A DNA stretch of 64,000 bases from the NCBI GenBank assembly GCA_036383255.1, contig DASVOS010000018.1, positions 1 through 64,000 on the forward strand, in the 5' to 3' direction. Of this stretch, positions 18,338-63,136 are shown piece by piece (the stretch's first letter is position 1; each line of letters starts with the position of its first letter). A model generated the notes under the pieces. That model saw only the letters and a program-made list of their open reading frames with translations. It was not told the DNA's origin and searched no databases. The position numbers and the translations under genes are program-made. The stretch comes from Gammaproteobacteria bacterium. GTDB taxonomy: Bacteria > Pseudomonadota > Gammaproteobacteria > Natronospirales > REEB76.

Positions 18338-18478
18338 TTCCACCAGAAGCTGCTGCGCTCGGCAGGGCGTTGTTGCGCGTCGGCTCGCAATCGGTCGCGT
18401 ACACCAAGAGTACGCTCCCTCTGCTCACCTAGCGCGCCTCGCTCTGCCTGCGCTCGTAACGCTTTTGGAAAAGCCGCG
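18338..18478 (-). repeat. Dispersed ~140-nt structured element, copy B
   Basis: Read on the minus strand this aligns along its length with copies at 31181-31327 and 62509-62649. Shared blocks include CCAAAAGCGTTACGAGCG, GGAGCGTACTCTTGGTGTAC, GATTGCGAGCCGA and TGCCGAGCGCAG. The tip stem CGTAC / GTACG (18398-18402 with 18410-18414) is conserved. It begins three bases after the stop codon of the cystathionine lyase gene, and its first bases can pair with the 3' end of that gene (TTGGAAAA / TTTTCCAA and GCCGC / GCGGC). Confidence 0.85.
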
Positions 18479-18481
18479 AAA

Positions 18482-19657
<1,176 letters not shown>

Positions 19658-29685: not shown

Positions 29686-31149
29686 TCAGTTCTCGTAATT
29701 CTTAGGCAGACGCAGGTGCCAGTCGGTCTCCCGCTGGTACTGGTGCGCGGCCGCGAGCATGCGGCCCTCGTCGAAGTAGTTGCCGATGATCTGCAGGCCG
29801 ACGGGCAGGCCGTCCACGAAGCCGGCGGGGATGGACAGGCCAGGCAGGCCCGCCAGGTTCACGCCGTTGGCGTAGATGTCGTTCAGGTACATGGTGATCG
29901 GGTCATCGGTCTTCTCGCCGAGCTTGAAGGCGGTGCCAGGAGCGGTCGGCCCCATGATCACGTCCACCTGCTTGAAGGCTTCCAGGAAATCCTGGCGGAT
30001 CAGGCTGCGGGTCTTCTGGGCCTTGAGGTAGTAGGCGTCGTAGTAGCCGGCTGAGAGCACGTAGGTGCCGGTCATGATGCGGCGCTTCACCTCGGCACCG
30101 AAGCCCTCGCCGCGGCTGCGCATGTAGAGGTCGGTGAGGTCCATCGGATCGGTGCAGCGGTGGCCATAGCGCACGCCGTCGAAGCGAGCCAGGTTCGAGG
30201 AGCATTCCGCCGGCGCCACGACGTAATAGGTGGGCACCGAGAGCCAGAAGTTCGGCAGGCTCGCTTCCTGCACCGTGGCGCCGAGCTTCTTGTACACGCC
30301 GATGGCGTCCTGTACCGCCGCCGCGACCTTGGCATCCAAGCCCTTGTCGAAGAACTCCTTGGGCACGCCGATGCGCAGGCCCTTCACGGACTCTCCGAGT
30401 CCGGCCACGTAGTCCGGCACCGGCTTGTCGACGCTGGTGGAGTCGCGCTCGTCATGGCCCGCCATCACCCGCATGATCATGGCGGCGTCTTCCGCCGAGT
30501 AGGTGATGATGCCGGCCTGGTCCAGGCTCGAGGCGAAGGCCACGATGCCGTAGCGCGACACGCGTCCGTAGGTGGGCTTGATGCCGGTGGCGCCGACGAG
30601 CGCCGCCGGCTGGCGGATGGACCCGCCGGTGTCGGTGGCGGTGGCAGCCGGCGCGAGGCGCGCCGCCACGATGGCTGCGGAGCCGCCGGAGGAGCCGCCG
30701 GGCACGCGCGTCTCATCCCAGGGATTCTTCACCGGACCGTAGAAGCTGGTCTCGTTGGAGGAGCCCATGGCGAACTCGTCCATGTTGGCCTTGCCTAGCA
30801 GCACCGTGCCGGCCTTCTTGAGCCGCTCCACCACGGTCGCGTCGTAGGGCGAGACGAAGTTATCCAGCATCTTCGAGCCGCAGGTGGTGCGCACCCCCTC
30901 GGTGCAGAAGATGTCCTTGTGCACGATGGGCAGGCCTTCCAGCGGGCCACCCTGGCCCGCGGCGATGCGCTTGTCGGAGGCGCGCGCCTCGGCCAGGGCC
31001 GAGTCCTTGAGCACGCTGATGAAGGCGTTGAGCTTGGGGTTGAAGCGCTCGATGCGCTCCAGGAACGCGCGAGTCAGCTCTTCGCTCGAGACCTTCTTGG
31101 CCTTGAGGTCGCGCGCCAGTTCAGCCAATGATTTTTTGTGAATAGCCAT
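29686..31149 (-). CDS. gatA: Asp/Glu-tRNA(Asn/Gln) amidotransferase subunit A
   Basis: Glutaminase subunit of GatCAB, of the amidase-signature family. It has 487 residues. The Ser-cisSer-Lys triad is visible: Lys78 in IVHKDIF, Ser153 in GGSSGGSAA and nucleophile Ser177 in [11 protein letters not shown]. Its stop is 2 nt from the gatB start. Unlike the usual tight gatC-gatA junction, 174 nt separate it from gatC, and most of that is copy A of the dispersed structured repeat. A gene-proximal 31 nt (31150-31180) is AT-rich and could hold a separate promoter, though none is obvious. Confidence 0.97.
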
Positions 31150-31180: not shown

Positions 31181-31327
31181 CATGAGCCCTTCCCAAAAGC
31201 GTTACGAGCGAAGGCAGGACTAAGCGCGCGAGGCGAGCAACCGGAGCGTACTCTTGGTGTACGTGAGGATTGCGAGCCGAAGCGCAACGACGCCATGCCG
31301 AGCGCAGTAGCTTTTGGAAGGGCTCAT
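31181..31327 (+). repeat. Dispersed ~140-nt structured element, copy A, between gatC and gatA
   Basis: Terminal inverted repeats at 31182-31200 and 31310-31327 (ATGAGCCCTTCCCAAAAGC against GCTTTTGGAAGGGCTCAT, one bulged base). The tip stem is CGTAC / GTACG (31247-31251 with 31259-31263) around TCTTGGT. The right terminus contains the gatC stop codon. It aligns with 18338-18478 and 62509-62649. The short open frames across it are not genes. Confidence 0.9.
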
Positions 31328-61464: not shown

Positions 61465-62510
61465 ACGCCGGAGAACTGCTCGCGAGCTTGTCCCGCGGCC
61501 CGGACACCTTCCTGCAAGACCTGGATTTCGTCAACCGCCGCGGCCTCCTGGTGCAGCAGGACCAGGCGGCGTTGCGCCGCGCCCCGTTCCTTGACCAGCG
61601 CGCCCTCACGCCCGGCACCGCCGGCGCCTGGTTCCCCCTGCCGATGATCGCCGAGCAGGCCGCAAGCATCCATCCCACGCCGCCTCACGCCATCTTCCAC
61701 GTGAGCCATTGCGGTTCCACCCTGGTGTCACGGCTCCTGGGAGAACTGCCGGGCTGCCTGCCGCTCAGGGAGCCCGTGGCCCTGCTGGCTCTCGCGGTGC
61801 AGCGTCGCGAGCTGGACCTGCCCACCTCGCGCCTGGGACCGGCCGAGTGGGACAAGTGGTTCGACCTTGCCCTGCGCCTGCTCTCACGCAGCTATGGGCC
61901 CGAACAGCGGGTGATCATCAAAGCCACCAGCGCCGCCGCGAACCTGCTCATGCCGCTGCAGGAGCGCGCGCCGGCATCCAGGGCATTGCTCCTGTATGTG
62001 GACCTGGAACGCTGGCTTGCCACCATGCTCAGGGACGAACAGGTGCGGGAGAACGGCCGCTTCTACGCGCCCGCCTGGCTCACGGACTTCCGCAGCCTCA
62101 CCGGCCGTAGCGACCTGCGCCTCACCGTGCTCTCGGAAGCGGAGCAGTTCGCCCTCAACTGGCTGACGGGCATGCTGCACTTCCAGCGGGCACTGGAAGC
62201 ATCACCGGAGCGCAACCGGCTGTGCGACTTCGAGGCCTTCCTGGCGGACCCCGCCTCAGGCCTGCGGGACCTGGGTGGGTTCTTCGGACTTGAGACGGCG
62301 CGTGCGGCGGAGATCACCGGCGGGCCGCTCATGCAAAGCTACGCCAAGAACACCGGCCAGCCCTTCGATGCTGCCGCCCGCCGCAAGGAGCTGGAAGAGA
62401 GCCGCAAGCGCAACGCTGCCGAACTGGAGGCGGGCCTCAAGTTCGCTGAGAAGCTGTGCCGGGAAATCTCTTCGCTCGAACCTCTCATCCCTTGCTTGCG
62501 GGAAGCTTGA
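61461..62510 (+). CDS. Sulfotransferase-like P-loop protein
   Basis: This encodes 349 residues, GTG start overlapping the kmo stop. At residues 80-93 HVSHCGSTLVSRLL has the form of the 5'-phosphosulfate-binding loop of sulfotransferases (xxxxGSTxxxxLL). A later LLLYVDLERWLATMLRDE resembles the region of the 3'-phosphate-binding segment, and FEAFLADPASGLRDLGGFFGL recalls the C-terminal helix. No specific subfamily is recognised. The tight coupling to kmo suggests a link to the pathway, but no sulfated kynurenine metabolite is implied by the sequence itself. Its stop codon lies in the left end of repeat copy C. Confidence 0.7.
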   Translation: MNAGELLASLSRGPDTFLQDLDFVNRRGLLVQQDQAALRRAPFLDQRALTPGTAGAWFPLPMIAEQAASIHPTPPHAIFHVSHCGSTLVSRLLGELPGCLPLREPVALLALAVQRRELDLPTSRLGPAEWDKWFDLALRLLSRSYGPEQRVIIKATSAAANLLMPLQERAPASRALLLYVDLERWLATMLRDEQVRENGRFYAPAWLTDFRSLTGRSDLRLTVLSEAEQFALNWLTGMLHFQRALEASPERNRLCDFEAFLADPASGLRDLGGFFGLETARAAEITGGPLMQSYAKNTGQPFDAAARRKELEESRKRNAAELEAGLKFAEKLCREISSLEPLIPCLREA

Positions 62511-62649
62511 GACCGACTCAAAGCGTAGCGAGCGAAGGCAGAACGAGGCGCGCGGCGGCAAGGAACCGGAGTGTACTCTTATGTACATGAGGATTCCGAC
62601 CCGACGCGCAACGAAGTTATGCCGAGCGCAGCAGCTTTGAGGCGGGCTC
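62509..62649 (+). repeat. Dispersed ~140-nt structured element, copy C
   Basis: Ends GAGACCGACTCAAAGC (62509-62524) and GCTTTGAGGCGGGCTC (62634-62649), inverted with 14 of 16 pairs. The tip stem is TGTAC / GTACA (62572-62576 with 62583-62587), against CGTAC / GTACG in copies A and B: both strands changed. The left end covers the last two bases of the upstream stop codon and the right end two bases of the folA stop codon. Confidence 0.9.
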
Positions 62650-63136
62650 AGCGCCGTTCGTAGGTCAGGAAGGAATAATCGTAGGCATTCTTGGCGTCGG
62701 CCTTATGGTCGACCCGCTCCGTGAGCCTCCACTCTTGGTCGTCCACGTCCGGGAAGAAGGTGTCCGCCCCTTCCACGTCCGCCTCGATGCGGGTGAGGTA
62801 GATCCGGTCGGCCCGCAACCAGGCCAGCCGGTAGACCTCGCCTCCGCCGATCACCATGAGCTCCGGCGCATCAGTCGTGAGCCGCAGTGCCTGCTCCAGG
62901 CTCGTGACCGTCTCGCAGCCCTCGGAGCGGAACGACGCATCGCGGGTCAGAACCAGGTTGCGCCGTTCCGGCAGTGGCCGGCCGATGGCCTCCAGGGTCT
63001 TGCGCCCCATGAGCACGGGCTTGCCGAGGGTGTTGGCCTTGAAATGCTTCAGGTCCGCCGGCAGGTGCCAGGGCATCTTGCCCGCCATGCCGATCTCACC
63101 ACGGCGCCCCACCGCGACGATGAGGGATACGATCAT
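62648..63136 (-). CDS. folA: Dihydrofolate reductase
   Basis: Reduces dihydrofolate with NADPH. It has 162 residues, typical of chromosomal DHFR. Motifs: SLIVAVGRRGEIGMAGKMPWHLPADLKHFKANTLGKPVLMGRKTLEAIGRPLPERRNLVLT, covering the Met20 loop, the catalytic acidic residue as Asp in LPADLKHF, and the NADPH Gly-Arg-Lys-Thr loop. ELMVIGGGEVYRLAW is the second nucleotide loop. Last gene of thyA-csaA-folA, overlapping csaA by ATGA. Its stop is inside the terminal arm of repeat copy C. Confidence 0.97.
   Translation of the reverse strand: MIVSLIVAVGRRGEIGMAGKMPWHLPADLKHFKANTLGKPVLMGRKTLEAIGRPLPERRNLVLTRDASFRSEGCETVTSLEQALRLTTDAPELMVIGGGEVYRLAWLRADRIYLTRIEADVEGADTFFPDVDDQEWRLTERVDHKADAKNAYDYSFLTYERR

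Follow-up and report, generated by a model that had tools for sequence, protein, structure and literature searches.

A dispersed hairpin repeat anchored at stop codons, with copy-specific paired arms, in a gammaproteobacterial genome and its relatives

The three copies and their neighbouring genes

The window analysed here, a stretch of 64,000 nt, contains three copies of a non-coding hairpin element, A, B and C, all present at the coordinates and in the orientations given by an earlier, sequence-only reading of this DNA (Table 1). The gatC open reading frame next to copy B fell short of an NCBIfam assignment in the tested stretch; its product ends in LYLVPKVVE* in the genome that carries the window (G000), and in LYLVPKVIE* or LYIVPKIIE* in sister genomes. 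The sequence ATGAGCCCTTCC at the end of gatC is present again, inverted, at the far end of copy B. Copies B and C each meet a stop codon at the 3' end of the element (that of gatC and that of a dihydrofolate reductase gene, respectively), as expected from the earlier statement that every copy abuts one, while copy A does not, its nearest stop codon lying 16 nt off its 5' side. When searched with the Rfam covariance models at gathering score, the window yielded two tRNAs only, and the element was left unmatched. The window also holds a 152-nt direct repeat, with units 71% identical, that is probably a repeated protein domain.

Table 1. Coordinates of the element copies, their arms, the adjoining genes and other features (window positions unless a locus is given)
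Feature	Position	Strand	Remarks
Copy B	31181..31327	+	between gatA and gatC; locus L001
Copy B far (5') arm, ATGAGCCCTTCCCAAAAGC	31182..31200	+	inverted repeat of the gatC end, including the stop codon
Copy B gene-side (3') arm	31310..31327	+	overlaps the gatC stop codon
gatC stop codon TGA	31324..31326	-	from the alignment with 11 sister genomes
gatA	29686..31149	-	TIGR00132 above cut-off; start codon beyond the far end of copy B
Copy A	18338..18478	-	locus L004; breaks the 3'-side stop-codon rule
Cystathionine gamma-synthase-like gene	18482..19657	-	stop codon adjoins the 5' side of copy A
Copy C	62509..62649	+	between two convergent stop codons; locus L013
Copy C 5' arm, GAGACCGACTCAAAGC	62509..62524	+	begins at the stop codon of the upstream gene
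Copy C gene-side (3') arm	62634..62650	+	overlaps the dihydrofolate reductase stop codon (62648-62650)
Dihydrofolate reductase gene	62648..63136	-	PRK10769, 166 bits against a cut-off of 168; stop codon anchors copy C
Direct repeat, 152 nt	1356-1507 and 1743-1894
Nested ~60-nt repeat	L078:4364, L079:16621, L080:1828, L083:4451
Retron-type reverse transcriptase gene	L330:1258-2187		G000, contig C17

Size and distribution of the family

With the window copies included, the family comprises about 60 copies in G000 (2.59 Mb, 18 contigs), of which BLASTN recovered 40, while a covariance model built from 30 of the copies gave 68 matches (E<=0.1), some 60 of which are strong. The unit is ~150 nt long and solitary, no tandem arrangement being seen. 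Relatives occur in 45 of the 369 sampled genomes of the class (39 of 272 genera) and in phage contigs, and a strict DNA pattern matched Gallionella, Sideroxydans, Dechloromonas, Azonexus, other Rhodocyclaceae, Derxia and a few more. Searches of plasmids, INPHARED phages and E. coli gave no match, and searches of open-licence full text, for the terminal sequence and for insertion at stop codons, returned nothing relevant. The family is real, abundant and apparently undescribed.

Several Rhodocyclaceae carry, at what is apparently one locus (L034, L040, L041, L042, L043, L046), a shorter relative of ~130 nt whose stem varies among species while its pairing is kept. A second repeat of ~60 nt (CTCGCCGCTCCCGCACATCCCTGTGCTCC...) was found only within the upper half of four element copies, and is a small repeat nested in the hairpin repeat.

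Folding and covariation of the stem

Each copy folds as a single long imperfect hairpin (z = -7.0 for copy B, -2.4 for copy A and -5.7 for copy C against shuffled sequences, on the element strand), and the fold of copy B is unchanged with DNA parameters. In the alignment of 30 copies, both sides have changed in 29 of the 47 pairs, with 186 cells altered on both sides where shuffling gives 71 ± 7, and a covariation score of 0.350 against 0.147; the signal is lost when the partners are slid by 1-3 columns. The GA-rich internal loops are conserved, and the 5' stem often contains the triplet CGT with a C after it, but this is no tag on a short palindrome. Together with the further copies in the genome, about 60, this covariation far above shuffles bears out the earlier description of a structured, dispersed, non-autonomous element.

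What kind of change does the covariation record? Most stem changes are clean double Watson-Crick swaps (87, against 24 departures to G-U or A-C), and the G-U and A-C departures are about equally frequent (14 and 10, respectively), so that selection on the RNA of one particular strand finds no support. The sequence-only reading had argued from the paired changes for selection on a folded RNA or a cruciform. Its observation of co-varying changes is borne out for the stem; the differences between the arms, in contrast, cannot be taken as compensatory evolution, for the reasons given below.

Anchoring at stop codons

On the 3' side of the element, a gene faces the repeat by its stop codon in 50 of 61 copies of G000, and in 41 copies the stop codon lies at most 11 nt from the edge of the core. 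On the 5' side, stops and starts face the element equally often (28 genes each), with only six stops at most 11 nt away (gene ends are those predicted by a simple codon model, for which the window was the training set, and not those of a curated annotation). All three stop codons are used at the 41 anchored copies (18 TAA, 15 TGA, 8 TAG), and about a fifth of the copies, including copy A of the window, have no stop-facing gene on their 3' side. The same asymmetry is found outside G000, in other genera too, where an open reading frame of at least 100 aa ends at the 3' side in 42 of 58 copies, versus 23 at the other side.

In another carrier (G347), TAA, TGA or TAG is directly followed by CAGG in 11 of the 12 copies with intact ends, one of them with a base change, and one copy with a shortened end has TAA directly against the core. 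The triplet at the end closes an open reading frame of more than 200 aa in five of eight copies tested, and the triplet at the far end is the inverse of the stop codon in only about half of the copies. The one-sided, strand-specific pattern of insertion anchored at stop codons is well supported; the earlier claim was thus roughly right yet understated, the genome-wide rule concerning one side and one strand of the element. Orientation could be shaped by selection.

Copy-specific arms

Counted from the invariant core towards the ends, positions 1-8 pair in at least 90% of the copies, and at arm positions 5-10, 121 of 150 cells pair within a copy against 54 ± 5.8 when arms of different copies are cross-paired. 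By inspection, the copies of G000 have no constant ends. Copies with cores 97-99% identical (L016, L018, L019, L022) have arms no more alike than those of unrelated copies (about 6 of 24 matches), and even in copies that are one base apart in about 105 the likeness of the arms is at chance level. Slow compensatory mutation cannot leave a core unchanged while giving it unrelated and yet paired arms, so the arms come with the insertion; inheritance of the arms from a donor copy is ruled out by the same near-identical cores. The lower stems behave similarly, since they differ between subfamilies while still pairing below the same head (AAAGCGTCGCGAGCG...GCGCAGCAGCTTT versus AAACGAGGGATTTTGGC...GCAAAAGACCCGTTT), and a phage copy likewise combines this head with an unrelated but paired lower stem.

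The far arm is related to the gene on the other side of the element. Among the 41 anchored copies, it complements the stop codon at 65 of 123 positions (45 ± 4.7 expected from shuffling, a count of 65 being reached in 0 of 3000 shuffles). The final three coding bases are complemented at 54 positions (versus 36.6 ± 4.8), with no excess of complementarity for the three coding bases before those. Where the core lies at the stop codon, arm pairing runs through the stop; with a core at greater distance, it often reaches the stop and goes no further. The far arm repeats, in inverted form, the gene-side sequence including the stop codon and, where the core is at the stop, up to about three coding bases. 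In the 5' flank, apparently just outside the far arm, the AAGAA-like words AAAGAA, TAAGAA and TTAGAA are enriched on the element strand (for example at L014, L016 and L022), and no such enrichment was seen outside the gene-side arm.

Empty and filled sites

All 11 sister genomes of the family have a gatC-gatA junction, and none of these junctions contains the element. In G000, the native gatC end is kept and the insert follows it, and none of the 11 sister gatC ends has a palindrome matching the G000 arms. The gatC-gatA spacer of several sister genomes contains REP-like palindromes (GGGAGCGGCG...; L347, L348, L350, L351, L353); one of these genomes, G001, has Y1 transposases, while G000 has the element instead and no Y1.

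Comparable pairs of sites are found in phages. Among phage contigs related to L047, the element lies just past the stop codon of the capsid gene in one and past the next gene in another. In L204, L206 and L210, it sits exactly between a stop and a start codon; in their relatives L207, L208 and L211 these two codons directly overlap (ATGA), and two further relatives, L205 and L209, likewise lack the element. The empty phage spacers are 15-25 nt long and have no palindrome, whereas the filled ones are longer by both arms, which indicates that the arms, together with short filler, belong to the inserted DNA. The genome sample comprises one genome per species, so these comparisons are made between different species or phages and their junctions are not resolved to the base, single-base positions being uncertain even in the close phage relatives, whose capsid proteins are 92-97% identical. 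In the one other genome of the same genus examined for an empty site of G347, no match was found.

At the single stop/start junction shared by L204, L206 and L210 and by their five empty relatives, the three filled phages have different lower stems; this junction is either a hot spot or one old insertion with its stem replaced on both sides.

Comparison with known repeats

The element resembles several families of bacterial repeats. REPs and REPINs, which are mobilised by RAYT (TnpA_REP, a Y1 transposase), are likewise extragenic palindromes, present in many copies, often near the 3' ends of genes, and non-autonomous; REPs are 20-40 nt long with a GTAG or CGTC tag (PMC3733652), whereas the element is ~150 nt long, has copy-specific arms, and inhabits a genome without Y1 transposase. 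Miniature inverted-repeat transposable elements (MITEs, such as ERIC, NEMIS/Correia and bcr1) are mobile, 70-300 bp long, devoid of coding capacity, and form strong hairpins (PMC3733652). The element shares the size range, the strong hairpin, the non-coding nature and the mobility, and its G046/G191 relatives do look MITE-like, but the copies of G000 lack a constant outer terminal repeat, have no target duplication beyond chance, and are anchored at stop codons. As for ERIC, no BLASTN match of the element was found in 5,426 genomes of E. coli, where that family occurs. The Beta-proteobacterial repeat element (BRE) is dispersed and mostly intergenic in Betaproteobacteria, with units of 75-91 bp that often form tandem arrays, some of them inside genes (PMC3110155). 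The element, at ~150 nt and not in tandem, is set apart from BRE by description, not by sequence.

The attC sites of integrons are also imperfect hairpins placed just after a stop codon, in fixed orientation and with variable sequence, and are in these respects like the element. However, the element copies are scattered beside housekeeping genes such as gatC instead of cassettes, and their core is conserved, not their ends. The msr-msd RNA of retrons similarly forms a long hairpin closed by paired arms, and G000 has a retron-type reverse transcriptase, but the element copies do not adjoin that gene as its RNA would, and RVT_1 is unmatched in several carriers.

Which enzyme might mobilise the family?

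The search for an enzyme covered three families, namely Y1 (PF01797), DDE_Tnp_1 and reverse transcriptase (RVT_1), and identified no mobilising enzyme among them. The Y1 (RAYT) family has no match in G000, while PF01797 matched over its cut-off in eight of 12 other genomes searched. The reverse transcriptase of G000 (309 aa, PADLOC RT_VI, E 4e-83) was rejected as the common enzyme, since RVT_1 has no match in eight of 12 carriers. On its contig, an element copy lies ~5 kb away from the gene. No pair of the G347 terminal repeats at the spacing of an autonomous insertion sequence was seen.

Origin of the hairpins and of their arms

Our preferred explanation, held tentatively and at somewhat less than even probability, is a mobile, non-autonomous hairpin whose insertion is primed at the ends of genes and whose far arm arises by snap-back synthesis, as an inverted copy of the gene end. 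A 3' end on the gene-sense strand would be extended by copying the element, from either a DNA hairpin or an RNA template; the new 3' end, because the product is itself a hairpin, would then snap back and copy a few bases of the gene end, giving the far arm. Joining of the product to the DNA downstream would follow, in many cases by way of a short filler, and over repeated cycles modules of the basal stem would be gained and exchanged. Stop codons might be recognised by way of translation or of mRNA ends, or else because a short target motif looks like them; since the three of them have little sequence in common, the choice is between a translation-coupled event and a short motif combined with selection. 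Priming at the gene end followed by snap-back would account for the copy-specific arms and the modular stems as well as for the orientation and the intact stop codon. Weighing against this explanation are the far-end triplet of G347, inverse to the stop codon in only about half of the copies, the flanks of G046/G191, which look like direct CTNAG-type repeats, the fifth or so of G000 copies that have no stop-facing gene on the 3' side, and a possible shaping of orientation by selection. The mechanism is inferred, and is put forward as a testable proposal.

Could the family instead be an ordinary superfamily of DDE-type MITEs? Their short palindromic target (TNA or CTNAG-like) would match stop codons by chance, selection would remove the other insertions, and hairpin-templated repair (quasi-palindrome correction) would match the flanks. 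This we consider rather unlikely, although the direct CTNAG-like repeats that appear to flank several copies of G046/G191, as a conventional transposase would make them, favour such an enzyme at least there. Constant terminal repeats in G347 and in G046/G191, DDE_Tnp_1 genes in seven of the 12 carriers examined, and the prevalence of double Watson-Crick swaps, as expected of templated repair, point the same way. Against it, direct repeats are in no excess around the copies of G000, and DDE_Tnp_1, the sole DDE family searched, is absent from G000 and G347; the use of TAG besides TAA and TGA, and a one-sided, strand-specific rule, are not what a palindromic target with selection for intergenic sites would give, and matching arms are already present in very recent copies.

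That last observation would also fit insertion into pre-existing palindromes, in which an enzyme would cut the loop of hairpins located after genes (terminators or REP-like repeats) and both arms would belong to the target, a scenario in line with the REP-like hairpins of the sister gatC-gatA spacers and with the terminators that some copies of G000 adjoin. It is improbable, given that the short empty spacers of the phages hold no palindrome and are exceeded by both arms in the filled ones, that the sister gatC ends do not match the G000 arms, and that the arms take in the stop codon and coding bases. Far less probable still is the proposal of the sequence-only reading, a functional 3'-UTR RNA hairpin under selection, with arms altered by compensatory mutation. 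Covariation along the whole stem, a position right after stop codons, conserved GA-rich internal loops and the apparently orthologous Rhodocyclaceae copies with stem changes are all in its favour; unrelated arms on near-identical copies and the lack of excess of G-U over A-C are not, nor is the antisense placement of the element relative to its anchored gene, the mRNA of which carries the complement of the GA-rich strand.

Significance

Snap-back synthesis at gene ends may belong to a wider picture, which we regard as possible though doubtful: a widespread proteobacterial class of mobile hairpins that would be guided to stop codons by translation or by the 3' ends of mRNAs and would create their palindromic termini themselves, by back-copying the end of the target gene, each jump writing the local gene end into the element. 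To our knowledge, no mobile element behaves in this way, with one end of a hairpin at a stop codon and ends apparently copied from the landing site. We also know of nothing in bacteria that links DNA insertion to translation or to the 3' ends of mRNAs, and it is such a link that one-strand insertion at stop codons, if true, would need. Arms made by the element itself would account for the origin of modular hairpins and of long, imperfect palindromes with no need of slow compensatory mutation, and would call for caution before such covariation is taken as selection on RNA. Even if the simpler MITE reading is true, the hairpins would still form a large and apparently undescribed superfamily of repeats, found in roughly every eighth genome of the class sample.
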